From positions 1-21,095 of IMG/VR virus record IMGVR_UViG_3300008107_000991: a stretch of 21,095 nt of DNA; one strand, written 5' to 3'. The DNA is from a virus. The notes beneath the pieces were generated by a model, which worked only from the letters and a program-made list of their open reading frames with translations, was not told where the DNA came from and searched no databases. The position numbers were made by a program, and so were the translations under genes. Below are positions 5,021-19,569 of the stretch, one piece after another; within the stretch, counting starts at the first letter, position 1; every line of letters begins with the position of its first letter.

Positions 5021-5961
5021 TGAAAAACTTTTTGTGGGTGGAGGAGTATCGTCCTCGTAAGATCGAAGACTGTATCCTCCCTGATTCGTTAAAGAAAGTA
5101 TTTACTGGATTTGTAGAGCAGGGGGAGATTGCTAATCTCCTTCTGTCTGGTCCTCCTGGAGTTGGAAAGACTACAGTTGCCAAAGCCCTGTGTGAAGAGA
5201 TTGGTGCTTCATATATTGTTATCAACGGTTCGGATGAAGGTCGCTTCCTTGATACTATCCGAACCCGTGTCAAACAGTTCGCCAGTTCTGTCAGTTTAAC
5301 TGGCGCTGGCAAACACAAAGTCGTCATCATTGACGAGGCAGATAATACCACTCATGACGTTCAGCTATCTCTTCGCGCCTTCGTTGAAGAGTTCCATAGC
5401 AACTGTCGTTTCATTTTTACCTGCAACTTCATTAATAAAATCGTTGACCCCCTGCACTCCCGCTGCACGGTCGTTGATTTCCGCATCAAACCCGAGGAGC
5501 AGAAGAAGTTACAGGCGGCGTTCTTTGGGCGCTTACAGACGATCCTAGACGCCTCTGGCGTGGCGTATGAAGACAAGGTGCTGGTCAAACTGATCCAACG
5601 CTACTACCCCGACTGGCGACGCCTGCTGAACGAAGCGCAGCGCCACTCTGCTGGTGGATCGTTGGATGCTGCAGTGCTCTGTGATATTGCTGATGTAAAC
5701 CTAGACCAACTCATGCGAGCAATGAAAGCAAAGGAATACAAGGTCGTTCGTCAATGGGTTGTAGATAATATGGATAGTGACCCTAATACTATCATTCGTA
5801 AAATTTATAATTCTCTGAGTGAATGTCTTGAAGGTTCTTCTATTCCTCCTGCTGTGTTGGTGTTGGCTAAGTATCAGTATCAAATTGCGTTCGTAGCTGA
5901 TCAAGAGATTAATATGCTTGCTTGTTTGACTGAAATTATGGTGGAGTGTAAGTTTAAATGA
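5020..5961 (+). CDS. 44: Clamp loader large subunit (gp44-like)
   Basis: This AAA+ clamp loader ATPase has 313 residues from the ATG at 5020 (a TTG at 5017 is a less likely start; the ATG gives a TGATG overlap with gp45). Walker A is GPPGVGKT at about 44-51, Walker B is VVIIDEAD at 101-108, sensor 1 is FIFTCN, and the SRC motif occurs as LHSRC. In T4 four gp44 subunits and one gp62 open and load the gp45 ring. Codons from about 5440 to 5650 are conspicuously GC-rich compared with the rest of the gene. The next gene is a methyltransferase rather than gp62. Confidence 0.95.
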   Translation: MKNFLWVEEYRPRKIEDCILPDSLKKVFTGFVEQGEIANLLLSGPPGVGKTTVAKALCEEIGASYIVINGSDEGRFLDTIRTRVKQFASSVSLTGAGKHKVVIIDEADNTTHDVQLSLRAFVEEFHSNCRFIFTCNFINKIVDPLHSRCTVVDFRIKPEEQKKLQAAFFGRLQTILDASGVAYEDKVLVKLIQRYYPDWRRLLNEAQRHSAGGSLDAAVLCDIADVNLDQLMRAMKAKEYKVVRQWVVDNMDSDPNTIIRKIYNSLSECLEGSSIPPAVLVLAKYQYQIAFVADQEINMLACLTEIMVECKFK

Positions 5962-6848
5962 AATCATTAAAGACCCCTCTTCGTTATCCTGGCGGCAAAT
6001 CTCGTGCCGTCAAGTATCTTATTCCTAAGATGCCTAAAGACATTACCGAATACCGTGAACCTTTTCTGGGTGGTGGTAGTGTAGCAATTGCGTTTACAAA
6101 AGAATACCCAGATATTCCTGTATGGGTGAATGATTTGTATGAACCATTGGTGAATTTCTGGCAGATGCTACAGAAGTCACCTGATGGTTTGTTCTGTTTA
6201 CTGGAAGCATACAAGAATACATATGACACGCCAGGCAAAGCACGGGCATTGTTTGACGAAATGAAGATTCAACTGAATAGTGCTGACACACCTAACCTCC
6301 AGAAAGCTGCTGCTTTTTATGTGGTCAACAAGTGTAGTTTCTCTGGTCTAACTGAATCATCTTCCTTCTCACCTCAAGCAAGTGATCATAACTTCACTAT
6401 GCGTGGTATTACAAATCTTTCTAAGTATTCAGAACTGATTGAGAATTGGAAGATTACTTGTGGTTCATATTGGGATATGATGATGACATCTGCTCCTGTA
6501 GGAACGTTCTGGTTCTTTGACCCTCCTTATGATATCAAAGATAATCTTTATGGTAAGAAAGGAGAACTACATAAAGGATTCAATCACGAAGAGTTTCATG
6601 CTTGGATCACTCAGGGTAATGTAAAAGATCGCTGGATGATTACTTACAATACCAATCCAACTCTTATGGAGTGGTATGATGGTTATTATCAAACCAAATG
6701 GGATTTGACTTATACTATGCGTTCAGTAGGCGACTACATGAATGAGCAAAAAGACCGTGCTGAACTTTTGATTACTAATTATGACGAAACCATCTCTAAC
6801 GGAATATTTGAACTCAATAAATCAAACCAAGAAGTCGGTAGTTATTGA
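5958..6848 (+). CDS. dam: D12-class DNA adenine-N6 methyltransferase (Dam-like)
   Basis: This 296-residue D12-class methyltransferase has PLRYPGGKSRA at 7-17, the AdoMet-binding EPFLGGGSV at 34-42, the catalytic DPPY at 188-191 within FWFFDPPYD, and a terminal strand AELLITNYD. The family methylates adenine N6, commonly in GATC; the exact site cannot be read here. It may protect phage DNA or mark replicated strands. It lies between gp44 and gp62, splitting a pair adjacent in T4, and its last 22 codons overlap the start of gp62 by 68 nt, so it is embedded in the operon rather than loosely inserted. It starts on the gp44 stop (ATGA). Confidence 0.93.
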   Translation: MKSLKTPLRYPGGKSRAVKYLIPKMPKDITEYREPFLGGGSVAIAFTKEYPDIPVWVNDLYEPLVNFWQMLQKSPDGLFCLLEAYKNTYDTPGKARALFDEMKIQLNSADTPNLQKAAAFYVVNKCSFSGLTESSSFSPQASDHNFTMRGITNLSKYSELIENWKITCGSYWDMMMTSAPVGTFWFFDPPYDIKDNLYGKKGELHKGFNHEEFHAWITQGNVKDRWMITYNTNPTLMEWYDGYYQTKWDLTYTMRSVGDYMNEQKDRAELLITNYDETISNGIFELNKSNQEVGSY

Positions 6849-12433: not shown

Positions 12434-13802
12434 AACGACTATTTTACGCAACCTCCTGTGCAACGAACAGTTCTACAGGAAGGTTGTTCCTTTTGTAAAA
12501 CCAGATTACTTCAATGAGATTCATGAACGTGTAATCTATGAAGAGGTCTGGAACTTCGCAAGCACCTATGAGCTGGTGCCTACGAAAGAAGTATTAACTA
12601 TCAACCTTGAAGCAAGAAAAGATTTAAATGAGGAAGTATATCAAAACGCAGTTAAAACAATTGCTGAGTTGTCTACCGATCCAATTGAATATAACTGGTT
12701 GCTCGACACCACAGAGAAGTGGTGTAAAGACAGAGCAATCTACCTCGCCTTGCTTGAGTCAATCAAGGTCGCGGATGGAGGTAATCCAAAAATATCAAAG
12801 GATGCGATTCCAGCAATCCTTCAAGAGGCCCTGGCAGTATCGTTCGATGAACACGTAGGTCACGATTATCTAGAGAATAGTGTAGAACGATATGAGTTCT
12901 ATCATCGTGAAGAAGATAAGATTCCATTTCACCTTGAATACTTCAATAAGATTACCAAAGGTGGTCTGCCAAACAAGACTCTTAACGTAGCTCTTGCTGG
13001 CACTGGTGTAGGTAAGTCACTCTTCATGTGTGACCTTGCCGCTCATTGTTTATCTATGGGTCGCAATGTTCTCTACATAACTATGGAGATGGCAGAAGAA
13101 AAGATTGCTGAACGTATTGATGCTAACCTGTTTAACGTCAATATCAAAGACCTTGTGGATTTGCCTGAGACAATCTTCCAAAGTCGCATCAATGAACTGA
13201 AGCGTAAAACTCAGGGTCGTCTTATCATCAAAGAATATCCTACAGCATCAGCACATGTCGGTCACTTCAAATCTCTTCTTAACGAACTTCAACTCAAGAA
13301 GACGTTTAAACCAGATATCGTCTTTATCGACTATCTTAACATCTGTGCTAGTGCGAGGTATAAAGGCGCTATCGTCAATTCCTATACTTATGTTAAAGCG
13401 ATTGCTGAAGAACTACGCGGTCTTGCTGTGGAACACAATGTTCCTGTTGTCTCAGCGACGCAAACAACCCGTAGTGGTTTTGGCAATAGTGACGTGGATC
13501 TTACTGATACTTCGGAATCCTTTGGTCTACCTGCTACTGCTGACTTCATGTTTGCTCTTATATCGACGGAAGATTTGGAGAAGGATGGTAAAATTATGGT
13601 CAAGCAATTGAAGAACAGATACAATGACCCTACTGCATATAAGAGATTTTTGGTTGGGGTTGACAGAGCAAGAATGAAGCTCTATAATGTTGATAACGCT
13701 GTTGACCTATCCTCTGATAAAGAAGAGGAGTATGATTTCGAAGAGATGGCAGCACAACAAAGCAAAGATACTAAAAGCAAATTTACCAGTTTTATTTTAT
13801 GA
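12420..13802 (+). CDS. 41: Replicative DNA helicase (gp41-like)
   Basis: This 460-residue DnaB/gp41-type helicase has an N-terminal helical domain, then [20 protein letters not shown] with Walker A GTGVGKS at 194-200, an [15 protein letters not shown] segment (catalytic Glu region), Walker [10 protein letters not shown] with D304, and a [11 protein letters not shown] segment (DnaB H3-like Gln). A C-terminal Glu/Lys-rich tail ends in KFTSFIL. gp41 is the hexameric 5'-3' fork helicase. It starts inside the uvsX end and its stop overlaps mazG (ATGA). Confidence 0.95.
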
Positions 13803-14203
13803 CAATTGATTTTAATAAGTATGTTGAATTCGTTGGTTCTGTCACCAGCCCAGCGTCACGAGATACTGGAGAATTTATTCTTCGTATTAGTGATCTCAAA
13901 TCTCAAGGTGTAGATATTCAACGTCTGATGACTGCTGCTTGTGGTATCACTGCCGAAGGCGGTGAGTTTACTGAGATTGTGAAAAAGATTGCTTTCCAAG
14001 GTAAACCTTATAACGAAGATAATGTCTTCCATATGAAGCGTGAACTTGGAGATATTCTTTGGTATATTGCTCAAGCATGTATCGCACTTGATATTTCGTT
14101 TGAAGAAATTGCTCAGATGAACTTTGAGAAACTGACTGCTCGATATCCAGAAGGAACTTTCAGTATTGAGCGAAGCGAAAAACGAGTTGCCAACGACGTA
14201 TAA
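13799..14203 (+). CDS. mazG: MazG-type nucleotide pyrophosphohydrolase
   Basis: This 134-residue MazG-fold protein has the all-alpha NTP pyrophosphohydrolase metal site E53-x-x-E56 in ITAEGGEFTEI and E82-x-x-D85 in RELGDILWYIAQ, with a conserved C-terminal FEKLTARYPEGTFS segment. MazG is a frequent cyanophage auxiliary gene. It was proposed to degrade ppGpp, but characterised cyanophage MazG prefers dGTP and dCTP, consistent with recycling nucleotides of the high-GC host genome. It is the last gene of the replication block: it starts on the gp41 stop (ATGA) and is followed by a terminator. Confidence 0.92.
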   Translation: MTIDFNKYVEFVGSVTSPASRDTGEFILRISDLKSQGVDIQRLMTAACGITAEGGEFTEIVKKIAFQGKPYNEDNVFHMKRELGDILWYIAQACIALDISFEEIAQMNFEKLTARYPEGTFSIERSEKRVANDV

Positions 14204-14211
14204 ACTAATCG

Positions 14212-14243
14212 CCTCTTCTAAATAATAGAAGGGGTATTTTTTT
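14212..14243 (+). terminator. Intrinsic terminator after mazG, with late promoter in its loop
   Basis: CCTCTTCTA (14212-14220) pairs with TAGAAGGGG (14226-14234) over 9 bp with one wobble, around an AATAA loop, followed by TA and seven T (14237-14243). It marks the boundary between the replication block and the late block. Confidence 0.8.
14218..14224 (+). promoter_or_regulatory. Late promoter motif CTAAATA
   Basis: CTAAATA spans the left arm and loop of the terminator and lies 23 nt before the ATG at 14248. The same 7-mer recurs at 16709 and 18275, and full TATAAATA occurs at 17524 and 18657, all just before genes of the late block. Confidence 0.6.
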
Positions 14244-14247
14244 AACT

Positions 14248-15504
14248 ATGGCTGGATTAACTTGGGGTCAGTTTAATAGAAGAGATAGATACAAAAGCAA
14301 CTGGCGTGTAGTGTATGAACGCATGAAAAATAATTTACCATTCACTCTAGTTCAAAAAAGCACGACAGATTCTGAAGATGGTATACATGTATATTTTTCT
14401 AAAGTTGCTATAAGTATCCCTGCTAAAGTTAATGGTAGATATAAGAAAGATAATATTTTTCTGGATTTAGAACCAAAAAGATTTTCTACCTTTGAAAATT
14501 TTTACCGAGAAGTTAAAAAAATTATTCCTGATAGTATGGTATCTGAAGGTGCGGGAGTTCCAATAACTTTAATATTTTTGCCATCAAGAAATTCCCCAAT
14601 AAGAAATGGAACAAACACAAATCAGATATTGAAAGATTTGGATTTTGGTGGTAGACCTTTGAACGGTCAAGTTAGAAATATATTTTGGGGCAATCTAAAA
14701 TATTATGTTGATAATGTAGATTCCACTTATAAGTTAAACTATCCAACCGCTACTGAAGCGGGGGAAGCAGATTTTATTAATACTTTCAATCAGGAACTGG
14801 ATGCCATACTTAAAAAAACAGGATTGTCGTCTATAGATTTAATGGTTGGTAATACAACTTTTGAAAATATTGTTGGTGTTAATAAAGTAGAAGGAACAGT
14901 TAAAGCAGACCTAGCATTGGTTGCTTTAGAAAAAGGAAAGTTGAATGACGTTGGGTGGTTCTCACACAAGCAAGGTAATGTAGCATCTGATTTTCAACAA
15001 TGGGGTGGTGTTACTCACTATGCTTCTGACAAACTTGGCGCTGATGAAACATTAGATAAGTTTCCTGAGATTAGAGCATTTGCAAAATATATGGCTTTTT
15101 GGTGTGGAAATGGAATGCAGTATGATTTAAAAAGTTCTAATGGAGTTGGGTTTACTGCAGTGGCAGAGATAGAAGATAACGATTTAAAAATGGAATCTGT
15201 TTACGGCAAAAATTTTGGATCTTCTAAGTATGGAGTATCAAATTGTAATGGAGTATTACAGGGTTCTCCATCTATTAAAAAAGTGGGGAACAAATATAAA
15301 TTAGAAATGTCGTCACATATTGTAATGAATCCAACCGCCATGACTGGCGGGTATGAACCTGTGTTGATGCTCATAAACAAGGGAGACAGGTCGCAGTATG
15401 GGATCCCAGGTGCTAGAATAGCGGTGCAGCCACGGGCGAGCAGGAAAGCAAAGTTCATCGTGTCTAAAGATCGCAACGGAAACTATCAGATGAATCCAGC
15501 ATGA
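14248..15504 (+). CDS. Hypothetical protein, possible PD-(D/E)XK-like nuclease
   Basis: I do not recognise a named family for this 418-residue protein. The central segment KADLALVALEKGK followed by VGWFSHKQGN has D221 and, 18-20 residues on, S239-H-K241, which fits the D...(S/E/Q)xK active-site spacing of PD-(D/E)XK nucleases between two beta strands; a DFQQWGGVTHYA helix follows. This is an inference from a short pattern. Codon use is AT-rich up to about 15350, then turns GC-rich for the last 50 codons. A late promoter lies upstream. The next gene starts on its stop (ATGA) and encodes a ligase-like protein. No signal peptide or membrane segment is seen; a virion protein of unknown fold is the alternative. 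Confidence 0.85.
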   Translation: MAGLTWGQFNRRDRYKSNWRVVYERMKNNLPFTLVQKSTTDSEDGIHVYFSKVAISIPAKVNGRYKKDNIFLDLEPKRFSTFENFYREVKKIIPDSMVSEGAGVPITLIFLPSRNSPIRNGTNTNQILKDLDFGGRPLNGQVRNIFWGNLKYYVDNVDSTYKLNYPTATEAGEADFINTFNQELDAILKKTGLSSIDLMVGNTTFENIVGVNKVEGTVKADLALVALEKGKLNDVGWFSHKQGNVASDFQQWGGVTHYASDKLGADETLDKFPEIRAFAKYMAFWCGNGMQYDLKSSNGVGFTAVAEIEDNDLKMESVYGKNFGSSKYGVSNCNGVLQGSPSIKKVGNKYKLEMSSHIVMNPTAMTGGYEPVLMLINKGDRSQYGIPGARIAVQPRASRKAKFIVSKDRNGNYQMNPA

Positions 15505-16712
15505 GCAAGAACACTCACCTCGAACACTTAGAAGACAGCATCTTGTTTGATGGCAAAGAAGGCGCTAATGATGCGTTTGCTTTTCTTGATGCTCTTACTA
15601 AAACTTTTAGCGGAACTCAAACCAGCAACTTTAAAATCACTACTAAGTGGGATGGTGCTCCTGCTGTAATTTGTGGTGAAGATCCAGAGAACGGTCAGTT
15701 TTTTGTTGGAACTAAATCTGTTTTTAATAAGACTGAACCCAAGATTAACTACACTGATTATCATATTGAAGCAAACCATGGCAACTCTTCTGGTCTGGTA
15801 GAGAAACTTAAAGTAGCACTGGAACATTTTCCTAAGCTGGGAATCAAAGGAATCATTCAGGGAGACTTGTTGTTTACCGATGATGCTAAAGAAGAGAAGA
15901 TTGATGGTGTAGATTATCTCACGTTTACTCCTAACACTATCACCTATGCTATTCCGAAAGGAACTGACGCATACAAAAAAGCAAAGCGAGCCAAGATTGG
16001 TGTAGTGTTTCACACTCGCTACGTTGGTTCTAGCATTGCAACTTCTAACGCTACGTTCGGTGTTGACATCAGTAAGTTTAATAATACTAATGATGTCTTT
16101 GTAATCAGTGCTGAGGTAGATACTCTTGGTAGTAATATGATTCTTAATGCAACCGAGAAGAGAAATCTTAATAACATGAAGAGAACTGCTCCCGCTGCTC
16201 TTCGTAATGCTGGTGCGTTCTTGGATGAGATTTCGCAACAGATTAACTCCAAAGATAATTTTAGTGTTGGAACTCGTCTTAAAACTTACTTCAACACTTA
16301 TGTAAGAGAAGGTAAGCGTATCAGTAATGTTAATCGTTTTATCGATGACTTCAAGAATGCTTATCATGAAACCATGATGAAGGAAGTTAACAAAGTGAAG
16401 CAGGAGAAGACCAAGGCTGCTAAACTGAAGAAACTCTATGATGGTATCGAGTTTGTGGATTCCAACATCGCTGGATTCAAAGCAACGATTACTCTCTATG
16501 TTATTCTTCAGAATGCTAAAAATATGTTTGTGAAGAAACTGGAATCTGCTGATAGCACTCGCACGTTTCTTCGCACTGATGATGGATTCCGTGTTACTGC
16601 CCCTGAAGGATTTGTTGCTATTAAAGATGGAAATGCTACCAAGCTTGTTGATCGTCTTGAGTTTAGTTTGGCAAACTTTACTCTCGCAAAGAACTGGGTA
16701 AAGGGAAACTAA
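15501..16712 (+). CDS. Ligase-like covalent nucleotidyltransferase candidate
   Basis: This 403-residue protein resembles a family seen in marine T4-like phages (I believe DUF6267, from memory). Several segments fit the nucleic-acid ligase superfamily: K49-x-D51-G52 in TTKWDGAPAV (motif I, lysine nucleotidylated), FFVGTKS, GIIQGDLLF near 117-125 (motif III-like), and close to the C-terminus PEGFVAI (E369) and TKLVDR (K381), matching motifs IV and V in order. A roughly 150-residue helical, Lys-rich insert separates III from IV, unlike compact ligases. It could seal DNA or RNA or be a nucleotidylated structural protein. It overlaps the preceding nuclease-like gene by ATGA and is followed 12 nt later by a nucleotidylyltransferase. 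Confidence 0.8.
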   Translation: MSKNTHLEHLEDSILFDGKEGANDAFAFLDALTKTFSGTQTSNFKITTKWDGAPAVICGEDPENGQFFVGTKSVFNKTEPKINYTDYHIEANHGNSSGLVEKLKVALEHFPKLGIKGIIQGDLLFTDDAKEEKIDGVDYLTFTPNTITYAIPKGTDAYKKAKRAKIGVVFHTRYVGSSIATSNATFGVDISKFNNTNDVFVISAEVDTLGSNMILNATEKRNLNNMKRTAPAALRNAGAFLDEISQQINSKDNFSVGTRLKTYFNTYVREGKRISNVNRFIDDFKNAYHETMMKEVNKVKQEKTKAAKLKKLYDGIEFVDSNIAGFKATITLYVILQNAKNMFVKKLESADSTRTFLRTDDGFRVTAPEGFVAIKDGNATKLVDRLEFSLANFTLAKNWVKGN

Positions 16713-16715
16713 ATA
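16709..16715 (+). promoter_or_regulatory. Possible late promoter CTAAATA
   Basis: The motif includes the TAA stop of the ligase-like gene and lies 9 nt before the ATG at 16725, so a transcript would have almost no leader. It may be a chance match produced by the stop codon. Confidence 0.35.
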
Positions 16716-16724
16716 CTAATAAAA

Positions 16725-17279
16725 ATGTTTAAGAGAGTAGTCATTACTTTCGGTCGCTTCAATCCTCCTACCATTGGTCATGAAAAACTCATTGATGCTG
16801 TAGCAAGAATTGCTGGAACCGATGACTATAAAATCTATACCAGTCATACCAAAGACAAGAAGAAGAATCCTCTATCTTCCGAACAGAAAGTAGGATACAT
16901 GAAAAAGATGTTTCCGAAACATAAAAATAATATTATGCTTGATACTGATCTGAAGACAATCATTAAAGTTCTTCAGAGTTTGCAGGGTGAATATTCGGAT
17001 CTTACTCTTGTAGTTGGCAGTGATCGTGTGCAGGAAATGGATACTTTGATCCAACGTTATAATGGAACAGAGTATACATTTAGAACTCTTGAAACAAAAT
17101 CTGCTGGCGAAAGAGATCCTGATGCTGACGGAGCAACTGGAATGTCTGCTAGTAAAATGAGAGAAGCAGCAACTAATGCAAACGTTGCTGAGTTTCGTAA
17201 AGGTATACCATCTACTTTAGACGATAAAGAAATGATGAAATTAATGACAGACGTTAGAGAAGGGTTGGGTATTAAATGA
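16725..17279 (+). CDS. HxGH-type nucleotidylyltransferase (NMNAT/cytidylyltransferase-like)
   Basis: This 184-residue protein has the nucleotidylyltransferase fold signatures: GRFNPPTIGHEKLI at 10-23 (TxGH version of HxGH, T16-I-G-H19), VVGSDR at 96-101, and GMSASKMREA at 139-148 (the ISSTxxR-like nucleotide-binding motif). The family includes NMN adenylyltransferases (NAD synthesis), pantetheine-phosphate adenylyltransferases and CTP-glycerol-phosphate cytidylyltransferases; the Asn-Pro-Pro after GRF leans towards the NMNAT/NadM side, but the substrate cannot be decided. It follows the ligase-like gene and overlaps the next small gene by ATGA. Confidence 0.88.
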   Translation: MFKRVVITFGRFNPPTIGHEKLIDAVARIAGTDDYKIYTSHTKDKKKNPLSSEQKVGYMKKMFPKHKNNIMLDTDLKTIIKVLQSLQGEYSDLTLVVGSDRVQEMDTLIQRYNGTEYTFRTLETKSAGERDPDADGATGMSASKMREAATNANVAEFRKGIPSTLDDKEMMKLMTDVREGLGIK

Positions 17280-17563
17280 AATCACTTAAAGAACTGTTAG
17301 CACAATCAAAACAAAAATCTTATATGCTTGGCAATGTATTTGCTGAGGGTGATTGGATTCAAAATTCTAATGGTGAAGCGGGAAGAATTCATCGCCGTGG
17401 AGTCAATTATGTTATTGCTGTAACAGAAGAAGGTAAAATGTTTCGTGCTTGGGTGAAAGATATTAAAGAACATTGTGGGTGTGAAGATAAAAATATGACA
17501 GATAAGGAGAAAGTCAAGTCATTTATAAATAAAAATAAACGACAAAAGAACAATGACAATTGA
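17276..17563 (+). CDS. Small KOW/SH3-like protein
   Basis: This 95-residue protein has an SH3/KOW-like core: GDWIQNSNGEAGRIHRRGVN, then YVIAVTEEGKMFRAWVKDIK, and a Lys-rich C-terminal tail. Similar modules appear in small late proteins of marine T4-like phages, sometimes fused to longer virion proteins. It may bind nucleic acid or protein; no catalytic residues are apparent. It is translationally coupled at both ends (ATGA with the upstream gene, 11-nt overlap with the next), and its 3' end contains a full late promoter motif. Confidence 0.75.
   Translation: MKSLKELLAQSKQKSYMLGNVFAEGDWIQNSNGEAGRIHRRGVNYVIAVTEEGKMFRAWVKDIKEHCGCEDKNMTDKEKVKSFINKNKRQKNNDN
17524..17531 (+). promoter_or_regulatory. 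T4-type late promoter TATAAATA
   Basis: An exact TATAAATA lies 21 nt before the ATG at 17553 and inside the 3' end of the preceding gene. It matches the consensus recognised by the gp55 sigma factor in T4. Confidence 0.65.
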
Positions 17564-18278
17564 CGAGTTTTCAAAAAGTCTAATTCAAGCGGCAGTTGCT
17601 GAGTTAGATGAAGCATGGGAAAAGCCTGAGAAAGAAGAGAAGGGAGAGAAAAAGCATACTGAAGGCAAGGATGAAGAGAAAAAAGAATTAAAAAAAGAAG
17701 CAAGAGACATGCCTGGCAATCAAGAGAAGATTGATGCCAATAAGAATGGTAAAGTAGATGCTCATGATTTTGCACTTCTTCGTGCTAGAAAGGGCAAGAA
17801 GTCAGTTAAGGAAATGTGGGAGAAGGCAGCAGAGGTTCAGGAAGGTTGGGCTAAAAAAAAAGCCGTAGATGAGGGCAAGAAAGTAGAAATCGAAATCATG
17901 CCTCAGGTTGATACTCCTAACGATCCAGAACCACCTACAGGAAAGAAAGCAAAGAAAGAAGTTAAGAAAGAAGAGTTTGCTGCTGAAGGTAAGAACAAGG
18001 AAGGTAAGGAGCAAGGTGCTGACGGCAAAGCTTGCTGGAAAGGATATAAGTATGCTGGCACAGAGAATGGTAAAGACAAGTGTGTGAAGGCAGGATATGA
18101 AATGGAAGGTGGCGAAGAACTTCAAGAGAAGCGTCTTTCTGCTAAAGAAAAAGCAAAGAAAGAAAAGTTTGTTAAGGGCATGAAGAAGAAGTTCAGTTCT
18201 TTCAAGTCTAAGTATGGTGCTAAAGCAAAAGATGTGATGTATGGAACTGCCACCTCGATGGCAAAGAAAGCAGCCTAA
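17553..18278 (+). CDS. Lys/Glu-rich late protein with EF-hand-like loop
   Basis: This 241-residue, highly charged protein contains a canonical 12-residue calcium-loop pattern at 61-72 (D61, N63, N65-G66, V68, D69, D72) within KIDANKNGKVDAHDF, dockerin- or EF-hand-like. Later a KACWKGYKYAGTENGKDKC segment has C161 and C177, a motif I associate with virion proteins of cyanomyoviruses. The rest is Lys/Glu-rich and probably disordered or helical, with a basic C-terminal tail. It is likely a head-related or DNA-packaged structural protein; this is inferred from composition, the late promoter and position. Confidence 0.78.
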   Translation: MTIDEFSKSLIQAAVAELDEAWEKPEKEEKGEKKHTEGKDEEKKELKKEARDMPGNQEKIDANKNGKVDAHDFALLRARKGKKSVKEMWEKAAEVQEGWAKKKAVDEGKKVEIEIMPQVDTPNDPEPPTGKKAKKEVKKEEFAAEGKNKEGKEQGADGKACWKGYKYAGTENGKDKCVKAGYEMEGGEELQEKRLSAKEKAKKEKFVKGMKKKFSSFKSKYGAKAKDVMYGTATSMAKKAA

Positions 18279-18482: not shown

Positions 18483-18643
18483 TTACTTGTTTTCTGACGA
18501 ACTGGGGTGTCACAATAGTTCTTGGTTTTCTTTTATCATTATCTGAATGGTTATCAAAAACAAAAAGAACTGAAGCAAATGGTATCTTAGATTTCATTCA
18601 ATTGTTTCTAAGAACCGTATTACGCAAGGGAGACCAGAAGTAA
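18479..18643 (+). CDS. Small membrane protein (54 aa)
   Basis: Starting on the stop of the previous small ORF (ATGA), this 54-residue protein has one clear hydrophobic segment (about residues 9-25, WGVTIVLGFLLSLSEWL) followed by a Lys/Arg-rich stretch and an amphipathic helix ending in RKGDQK. Single-spanning late proteins of this size can be holin-like or virion-assembly factors; nothing here decides between them. Its last codons form part of the intrinsic terminator that follows. Confidence 0.72.
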   Translation: MITCFLTNWGVTIVLGFLLSLSEWLSKTKRTEANGILDFIQLFLRTVLRKGDQK

Positions 18644-18657
18644 GGTCTCCTTTTTTT
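18629..18657 (+). terminator. Intrinsic terminator before the Ig-like protein gene
   Basis: GGAGACC (18629-18635) pairs perfectly with GGTCTCC (18644-18650) around an 8-nt loop that contains the TAA stop of the small membrane protein, followed by seven T (18651-18657). Confidence 0.9.
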
Positions 18658-18664
18658 ATAAATA
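18657..18664 (+). promoter_or_regulatory. T4-type late promoter TATAAATA
   Basis: An exact TATAAATA begins on the last T of the terminator's T-tract and lies 35 nt before the ATG at 18700, which has an upstream GAGG ribosome binding site (18690-18693). It is the clearest late promoter in the window. Confidence 0.8.
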
Positions 18665-18699: not shown

Positions 18700-19569
18700 A
18701 TGGCAATTTTCGGAACAATCGACGCTAAAGCGTTGGCAACAAATGTAAGTGTTACCAACGGTAGCACAACTGTTACTACAACTGGTGACTTCACCAACAG
18801 AGCAACTGCTGACTTTGTTCAGAACGGTGATGTTCTTTCATTAGGTGGTGTTCAGTATACTGTTGAGTCGGTAGTTTCAGCAACATCACTCAAACTCAGA
18901 ACAGCATATGCAGGTTCAACAGGAACTGTTCTTGCTGCTAATGCTATTCGCAGAACTGCACCAAAAGAAGTTGCAACTCTTCTCCTTGATGAGAATGGTC
19001 AACTAGCACACTTCCCAACGGGAACAAGTCTCATCTTCATCGATGACACTGAAGCTGCTCTAGATGAGAACAAGGTTCGTGGTCTCAAGTGGCCAGGTTG
19101 GTGGGCATATAGAACCTATACTGATGGTGATGGCAATACTCGCCATAAGGCAGAGTGCCTAGCATTCGCTAATCAGACTGCCGCTAACGCTGGTGACTAT
19201 GGCACCGCTCAGGGTGGAACAGAAGATAATCCTGCTGCTGATGTAGTATCTGCAGTTACTATCACTGGTCAACCTGCTGCTGTAACTGGTGCTGCTACTC
19301 CTTACACTGGAACATTCACAGTTACAACTTCGACAACTGGCACACCTGGAACTCTTCTATATCAGTGGCAGTATCAAACTGCTACGCAGACAACCAAGTG
19401 GACTAATGTTACCAACACTGGTGTATACACTGGTGCTACAACTGATACTCTCACACTTACTGCTGCTGCTAAGGCAACCTATGATGGTTATAAGTATCGC
19501 GTGAAGATTACATCTGCTGGTGGAACTGAGGAAGTCATTTCCAACTCTGCTTCTATTACCTATGCATGA
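18700..19569 (+). CDS. Putative virion protein with C-terminal Ig-like domain
   Basis: This 289-residue, Thr/Ala/Gly-rich protein has few charges, as in phage surface proteins. The first 80 residues are beta-rich (VQNGDVLSLGGVQYTV then a TSLKLRTAYAG strand), a central part contains WPGWWAYRTYTDGDG, and about 185-289 forms an Ig-like domain with LLYQWQYQ, TDTLTLTAA, YDGYKYRVKITSAGG and SNSASITY. Ig-like domains decorate capsids, tails and fibres and may bind cell-surface carbohydrates. It has its own strong late promoter and a terminator just upstream, suggesting high late expression. Its exact place in the particle cannot be read. Confidence 0.85.
   Translation: MAIFGTIDAKALATNVSVTNGSTTVTTTGDFTNRATADFVQNGDVLSLGGVQYTVESVVSATSLKLRTAYAGSTGTVLAANAIRRTAPKEVATLLLDENGQLAHFPTGTSLIFIDDTEAALDENKVRGLKWPGWWAYRTYTDGDGNTRHKAECLAFANQTAANAGDYGTAQGGTEDNPAADVVSAVTITGQPAAVTGAATPYTGTFTVTTSTTGTPGTLLYQWQYQTATQTTKWTNVTNTGVYTGATTDTLTLTAAAKATYDGYKYRVKITSAGGTEEVISNSASITYA

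Follow-up and report, generated by a model that had tools for sequence, protein, structure and literature searches.

The DNA analysed, hereafter the window, is the entire IMG/VR record IMGVR_UViG_3300008107_000991 (21,095 bases). It holds a T4-like block (DNA polymerase, a RecA-like protein, a DnaB-type helicase and MazG), followed by a hairpin and by three genes, here called A, B and C (Table 1). The first-pass annotation of this DNA had described nuclease-like, ligase-like and nucleotidylyltransferase genes in a row, which was confirmed, and all the residues that it named were found (D221 and S239-H-K241 in A; K49-W-D-G, Q120-G-D-L-L-F, E369-G-F-V and K381-L-V-D-R in B; T16-I-G-H19 in C). 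Its three folds and late control were upheld, K49 was conserved, and its view of the trio as a module did not hold: the fixed unit is B plus C, and A is one of many occupants of a slot upstream of B. In the window, the stop codon of A and the start codon of B overlap (ATGA). Each part belongs to a known superfamily; the combination, and a widespread gene of unknown function within the cassette, are new to the present authors.

Counts for B loci (presence of C, occupancy of the slot, overlaps) refer to loci that were not dereplicated, some of which share one contig. Larger-scale checks used G001, an IMG/VR contig of 192,732 bases whose A is 100% identical to that of the window.

Table 1. Features of the cassette and its surroundings (positions in the window; aa, amino acids)
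Feature	Position	Strand	Basis or remark
mazG	13799..14203	+	Last gene of the replication block ahead of the hairpin; context, outside the cassette
Terminator-like hairpin with late-promoter box CTAAATA (14218-14224)	14211..14235	+	Head of the cassette, 3' of mazG
A, 418 aa, restriction-endonuclease-like (phrog_13937)	14248..15504	+	PADLOC, AlphaFold model, invariant residues
Catalytic-type domain of A, about aa 166-402; candidate site D221, S239, K241			
B, 403 aa, DUF6267, predicted covalent-nucleotidyltransferase (polynucleotide-ligase) fold	15501..16712	+	Pfam, model, motifs
C, 184 aa, HxGH-type nucleotidylyltransferase, nearest to NMN/NaMN adenylyltransferases	16725..17279	+	Pfam, NCBIfam, motifs
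95-aa protein, C-terminal module separated from the transferase	17276..17563	+	Fused to C in other phages

Protein B and its pairing with C

The sole Pfam match of B above cut-off was DUF6267 (E = 3.5e-127), which has no function assigned. In the nomenclature of ligase motifs, in which motif V follows the rule KxK, B had motifs I (K49-W-D-G), III (Q120-G-D), IV (E369-G) and V (K381) in the right order, as had been noticed earlier. Among 188 distinct B sequences, K49, D51 and G52 were kept in 186 and gapped in 2, with no substitution. Q120 and D122 (187/188) and H171 and T172 (186/188) were likewise unsubstituted, the remainder being gaps, as were E369 (179/188; 9 gapped) and K381 (180/188; 8 gapped). 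Position 383, the place of the second motif V lysine, was V in 176 sequences, I in 4 and gapped in 8, and R385 was present in 178. An additional N-terminal motif, H6-x-x-H9-x-E11-D12, was nearly invariant. The lysine, the glutamate and the motif V lysine were all retained in an alignment of 11 B sequences that included Vibrio, Stenotrophomonas and short cyanophage forms.

The AlphaFold model of B had a mean predicted local distance difference test score (pLDDT) of 92.2 and a predicted template modelling score of 0.86 (82 sequences). Of the best 50 rows of its comparison with 998 chains in VIA-align, 48 were RNA or DNA ligases, and the other two were DnaK and TolQRA. All eight rows with Z > 8 were Naegleria RNA ligase (best Z 8.3, root-mean-square deviation 3.8, 177 aligned). 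A Z of about 8 is no proof alone, and the ligase-fold call was judged convincing because the motif residues and the fold agree on the superfamily. The large helical insert mentioned in the first-pass annotation appeared in the model as helices at aa 217-350, between the H171-T172 strand and E369. Sequence searches of the PDB with B and with its profile gave no convincing relative and no match to a solved ligase; the best match of the profile was ribosomal eS8 (E = 0.0045), over the helical insert. By Pfam, B did not belong to PF01653, the family of the NAD+-dependent DNA ligase LigA.

With polynucleotide ligases (Naegleria RNA ligase, T4 Rnl1 and Rnl2, TbREL1, Trl1 and ATP-dependent DNA ligases), B shared the predicted fold and, in the same order, the KxDG of motif I, motif III, the EG(F/Y)V of motif IV and the first lysine of motif V. 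It differed from them in having no second motif V lysine, no OB-like domain that could be seen, about 130 aa of helical insert ahead of motif IV, and the N-terminal HxxHxED. B is very probably an active covalent nucleotidyltransferase; that it joins polynucleotide ends is favoured by a small margin.

B and C were linked in several ways. In resequenced S-PM2 (LN828717) they formed a single open reading frame (ORF) of 591 aa, which a frame change splits in the older record (AJ630128; L087 5995-7771, L095 3995-5770). At locus L112, B was joined to an HxGH transferase of another, second type in a frame of 1383 codons, and at L110 this second type lay about 1 kb downstream of B. C was found in 175 of 210 B loci, fused in 1, within 300 bases in 112 and farther away in 62. 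Among the 35 loci without C, 2 had the second HxGH type, the sequence ended less than 1.5 kb downstream in 21, and 12 had room. Both genes were present in 10 of 11 phage records; the eleventh, phiN3, had neither and carried a relative of A. In a collection of 50,697 phage records (B and C matched at E 1e-5, T4-type helicase at 1e-40, records counted by name), B occurred in 468 and C in 532. Records named Synechococcus had B in 368, C in 374 and the helicase in 376, and records named 'Cyanophage' had each of the three in 61. The available parts of the open-licence papers held no statement that DUF6267 is ligase-like or pairs with a nicotinamide mononucleotide (NMN) adenylyltransferase (NMNAT).

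The earlier call of a TxGH nucleotidylyltransferase for C agreed with both motifs and Pfam. In the motifs T/HxGH and S-x-x-K-x-R, H19, S141 and R146 were found in 144/144 sequences and K144 in 142/144, and Pfam matched C to CTP_transf_like (E = 3.1e-8). The closest NCBIfam models were NMN and nicotinic acid mononucleotide (NaMN) adenylyltransferases (E = 4.7e-7 and 7.7e-6), all far below cut-offs (for TIGR00482, 30 bits with a cut-off of 112.45). A PDB sequence search with C gave no convincing relative. C shared the HxGH and S-x-x-K-x-R motifs with NadD, NadR and NadM; unlike curated NMNATs, it fell below every cut-off and was paired with, or fused to, DUF6267. It belongs to the same family as T4-GC190 and as the virion 'cytidyltransferase'/NMNAT of S-SCSM1 and S-CREM2. 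Phage NAD+ salvage by NadV with NadM or NadR (PMC9503650) also involves a HIGH-superfamily adenylyltransferase in a T4-like phage; C differed from it in occurring without NadV and in having a ligase-fold protein as partner instead of a Nudix or kinase domain. NadV (PF04095) was matched in all 3 non-cyanophages and in none of the 13 cyanophage or cyanophage-like records.

The 95-aa module, an ORF not mentioned in the first-pass annotation, was fused to C in P-SSM4, S-CAM9, S-8S56 and S-SCSM1; it bears the label of a ribonucleotide reductase subunit in S-PM2 and in PHROGs. In Vibrio phage EniLVp02, a gene labelled 'DNA helicase' (L090 6999-7886) was a nucleotidylyltransferase relative of C (E = 5.6e-9). 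The transferase also lay inside long multi-module proteins, with DUF5824 at L112 5989-10137 and L102 3967-7068 and with an end that is ParB-like by eye in DLP_6 (L092 8376-10544); these proteins look like polyvalent injected proteins.

Protein A, the variable slot and late control

K219, D221, S239, H240, K241 and Q251 were invariant in all 43 distinct A sequences. For the candidate PD-(D/E)XK call made earlier for A, the predicted fold was nuclease-like, with D221 and K241 among the invariant residues. The AlphaFold model (pLDDT 90.4; 31 sequences) had MspI (Z 7.1) and HinP1I (Z 6.6 and 6.3) as best VIA-align rows, with 4.9 for the following row; Z of 7 to 8, the level of the A and B models, lies in a range in which unrelated folds may turn up. 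Against predicted viral proteins, the model matched the chlorovirus proteins N751L (E = 7.5e-12), R.CviJI (2.6e-11), Nt.CviQII (1.6e-9) and a third chlorovirus endonuclease (3.7e-9), all with a probability of 1.00 and with TM-scores of 0.3-0.5. The PADLOC model 'type II nicking endonuclease' matched residues 215-345 (E = 2.2e-6). Pfam gave no family above cut-off for A, and its PHROGs family (phrog_13937) has no function assigned. PDB sequence searches with A and its profile gave no convincing relative; the best match of the profile was the nucleotidyltransferase TM1012 (E = 0.054), over the N-terminal part of A.

S239 occupies the usual acidic position, so that A departs from the textbook PD-(D/E)XK motif. 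MspI and HinP1I presumably also have a non-acidic residue at that place, a comparison that is unsure. A review puts the asparagine of MspI at the lysine position (PMC4081073). A resembled R.CviJI, Nt.CviQII, MspI and HinP1I in predicted fold and in the invariant D and K; it differed in the serine, where the textbook motif has its second acidic residue, in having no adjacent methyltransferase and in having a ligase-like gene as coupled neighbour. A is probably a DNA nuclease. The nuclease had been regarded as the weakest link of the cassette; A was not clearly the weakest structural call.

Seventeen of the 210 B loci had no room upstream of B; of the 193 with room, 52 had an adjacent A-family gene and 141 had none. 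This is where the proposed trio failed as a module, and its B-C part stood (fusion and co-occurrence). Another ORF of at least 190 aa lay close by in 106 of the 141 loci, and these ORFs fell into 27 BLAST clusters. Of ten of these proteins compared with PHROGs, six matched differing families of unknown function and four matched none. In searches of ten slot proteins with Pfam and PADLOC, none matched Pfam; PADLOC recognised one restriction enzyme (L122, E = 1.7e-10) and gave one weak match to JetC. In 152 loci an ORF of at least 190 aa ended within 120 nucleotides (nt) of the B ATG; stop and start overlapped by 4 nt in 59 and by 1 nt in 43 (102 in total), and occupants of several clusters were coupled to B in this manner. 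A D...[SE]xK pattern was found in 16 of 27 cluster representatives vs. 26 of 164 control clusters (shuffles, 4.7/27), in a post hoc test with a pattern drawn from the same data and with some of the 16 matches at unlikely places. In the large slot cluster 1, G-x-S-x-K was nearly invariant (at least 93% of members), with A for G in at least one member; the S-SCSM1-like branch of that cluster had K-W-[NST]-P-[AG]-D-I...G-[IV]-S-L-K in 14 aligned rows.

A late promoter ahead of the cassette, part of the first-pass annotation, was supported. In the window the CTAAATA box, which is presumably a late promoter by analogy with those of T4, sits in a hairpin of 10 pairs followed by ATTTTTTT. Of 127 distinct 70-nt stretches ahead of slot genes, 91 held a late-type box, compared with 236 for 1101 control ORFs. 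It lay inside a terminator-like hairpin in 25/127 slot-gene upstream regions vs. 0/1101 controls (also, among others, at L003, L005, L007, L013 and L086); the stems varied between loci and the loop retained TAAATA. The hairpin resembles a terminator of the replication transcripts with a second role as late promoter, and it may stop early and start late transcripts at one place. A second terminator-like hairpin (18626-18664 in the window), directly followed by TATAAATA, lies ahead of a head-protein gene at 18700.

Other ligases, methyltransferases and site avoidance

Ligase families were searched in 16 records (11 named phages and 5 possibly incomplete IMG/VR contigs), 13 of them cyanophages or cyanophage-like and 3 other. 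PF01068, PF01653, PF09414 and PF09511 were found in 0 of the 13, in a search for which a control of 14 genomes was positive for the first three families and not for PF09511. All three non-cyanophages had PF01068, none of the 16 records had PF01653, and PF09414 and PF09511 occurred in EniLVp02 and phiN3 only. B was the sole ligase-fold protein detectable in the 13 cyanophage or cyanophage-like records. LigA was detected in Synechococcus elongatus as a control; the host LigA could serve cyanophages, and these may also have a wholly different sealing enzyme.

Two methyltransferase families, PF00145 and D12, were searched. No cognate methyltransferase of these lay beside A in the window, and PF00145 was found in 0 of 13 records. 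A D12-class adenine methyltransferase lies at 5958-6848 of the window, upstream of the replication genes, and occurred in 8 of 13 phage records searched. It was present in three records without the A family and missing in 5 of 10 with it, one of these five a partial contig.

Palindromic 4-mers were strongly avoided in G001 (observed/expected 0.04 for GTAC and 0.02 for CCGG; 180 kb counted), and the window had 2 GTAC vs. 57 expected and 0 CCGG vs. 13 expected. Some relatives avoided AATT, TGCA, GATC or TCGA instead. L072 and L010 avoided AATT and TGCA, respectively, although their A proteins were 95% identical. Over 66 pairs of 12 phages, the Spearman correlation with avoidance distance was -0.12 for A identity (p = 0.32) and -0.68 for B identity. 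RGCY, the site of CviJI, was low both where the A family was present (0.43, 0.43) and where it was absent (0.34, 0.34). Host restriction is a likely cause of palindrome avoidance. Genome composition showed no trace of a site preference of A, and neither methyltransferase family searched supplied a cognate partner for it, so that an A that is active in the producing cell would need protection of another kind, and sealing by B may be one answer.

Virion link, proposed mechanism and alternatives

Proteins of the C family have been linked to virions. T4-GC190 and one other core cyanophage protein were new detections in virions of S-SM1, and the core gene set behind this was defined on 16 genomes (PMC3037559). 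The NMNAT of S-SCSM1, ORF91 (PMC9602691), and ORF154 of S-CREM2 (PMC10665884) were also found in virions, where carry-over of an abundant protein is possible according to the authors of both papers. S-SCSM1 ORF90, directly upstream of the NMNAT, has the product name 'virion protein' in its record and is not named in the available text of the S-SCSM1 paper (PMC9602691). It was homologous to the slot ORFs L183, L185, L168, L203 and others (best E 2e-47) and was found with tblastn in 54 phage records; among the matches listed, its relatives ended within about 100 nt of B in S-WAM2, Syn1, S-RIM44, S-SSM5 and ACG-2014e. Chloroviruses package restriction enzymes and not methyltransferases, and the breakdown of host DNA is ascribed to the packaged enzymes (PMC7019647). 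Packaging of A-type slot proteins in the virion seems somewhat probable.

The cut/seal/cofactor repair module of the first-pass annotation is hypothesised here in the following form. The cassette would be expressed late and be translation-coupled. A would be a PD-(D/E)XK-like DNA endonuclease of the restriction type, destined for the virion, and the present occupant of a slot filled by differing nuclease-like proteins across cyanophage lineages. B, a single-domain enzyme, would take AMP onto K49 and, ahead of packaging, seal nicks or breaks in phage DNA rather than in RNA, among them the ones left by A in the producing cell; it would act in this way as a counterweight to A. C, as an NMNAT-like enzyme, would serve B by feeding or recycling its nucleotide donor and would itself be carried in the virion. 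The coupling of B to unrelated slot proteins would fit an enzyme acting on broken DNA better than a protein-specific inhibitor. The chain as a whole (A cuts, B seals, C feeds the donor, A and C are in the virion) was given a probability of roughly 0.3 to 0.35.

A bolder version would make DUF6267 the missing ligase of T4-like cyanophages, taking AMP from NAD+, with NMNAT turning NMN back to NAD+ at the cost of ATP and so recharging the system itself. Phage DNA would be resealed against any co-translated, fast-changing and packaged slot nuclease, which would cut the DNA of the next host or of a competitor. This version is a long shot.

Several results weigh against the proposed chain. Foldseek searches of the PDB gave no match below E 0.001 with the model of A or with that of B, and the VIA-align scores of both lie in the ambiguous range given above. 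Motif V of B, KLVDR, is without the second lysine of KxK, and no OB-like second domain was visible in the model. Late control fits packaging and not replication, so that a replicative role of B should not be presumed. EniLVp02 and DLP_6 had B plus an ordinary DNA ligase. The authors of S-CREM2 list a ligase (PMC10665884), and gp190 of that phage (L311 14429-14932; 167 aa), with relatives in eight contigs of the sample, is labelled 'DNA ligase' in the record; gp190 was rejected as a conventional ligase and its label was not accepted, because it matched only DUF6433 in Pfam (E = 1.1e-30) and had no KxDG. The 12 of 210 B loci with downstream room and no C had no HxGH motif nearby, and B and C were far apart in 3 of 10 genomes (S-CAM7, S-CREM2 and S-SCSM1). 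Concerning virions, B (ORF257) is not labelled as a virion protein in the S-SCSM1 record, B (gp87) was absent among the listed rows of the S-CREM2 virion table (PMC10665884), and no virion report for the family of A itself was seen in the literature examined. Homology of A to every other slot protein was rejected (hhalign of 12 clusters vs. A, probabilities 0.1-2.4), as was a specificity of A that shapes the phage's own genome, given that palindrome avoidance did not follow A.

Selfish, homing-like nucleases might instead use the slot as a hot spot, functionally independent of B and C, which would form a separate unit. The number of unrelated occupants (106 ORFs in 27 BLAST clusters) and the absence of the A family from 141 of 193 loci with room are consistent with this; against it stand the 4- or 1-nt overlaps with B in 102 of 152 loci and with several kinds of occupants, the late box before 91 of 127 slot genes, and the slot-type protein labelled 'virion protein' that adjoins C. 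A purely selfish slot was considered doubtful. B could also be an RNA ligase that repairs tRNA or other RNA after cleavage by host defence nucleases; C would then give NAD+ for end clean-up, and A would be unrelated. The best structural rows were in fact RNA ligases (Naegleria Rnl, TbREL1, T4 Rnl2, Rnl1 and Trl1), and phage RNA-repair systems that use NAD+ have been described (PMC9503650). RNA repair would be expected early, however, and the cassette has a late box; the coupled neighbour of B resembles a DNA restriction nuclease; and no kinase, phosphatase, 2H or KptA-type partner was among the annotated neighbours, the genomes not having been searched for such partners. A role in RNA repair appears unlikely.

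Two further explanations, of similar standing to each other, were held improbable. In one, C makes an activated small molecule, a nucleoside diphosphate (NDP) derivative of a sugar, alcohol or amine phosphate, that B uses or transfers to modify DNA or a virion component. Cyanophage HIGH-superfamily transferases have been interpreted as makers of NDP-sugars (PMC7824862), and the atypical motif V of B and its nearly invariant H6-x-x-H9-x-E11-D12 would suit such a role, but the curated families nearest to C were the NMN/NaMN adenylyltransferases, even if with scores below their cut-offs, and the data, which included no test for base modification, gave no sign of a modified base. In the other, C works by itself on host NAD+ once injected, which is the published view (control of NAD+ by a virion NMNAT; PMC9602691, PMC10665884), with B as a relative, inactive or structural, that history has kept alongside; this is at odds with catalytic residues of B that were unsubstituted in 188 sequences, with the fusion of B and C in S-PM2 and with the retention of both genes in genomes where they are far apart.

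The DUF6267 gene, which has no assigned function, is about as frequent among cyanophage records as the gene for the T4-type helicase, and the ligase-fold call makes its product a testable enzyme. The call also raises the question of what seals DNA where four ligase families go undetected. The B-C fusion provides a first partner for the virion NMNAT, which several groups have reported and whose role was only guessed. With a swapping nuclease slot, phages would have an equivalent of the restriction enzymes that chloroviruses package.

Downstream of the cassette, the window has a strongly charged ORF of 241 aa (17553-18278) that overlaps the ORF of the 95-aa protein and contains a calcium-loop-like stretch (dockerin/EF-hand, below cut-off). 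Relatives of this ORF were present in many B loci.

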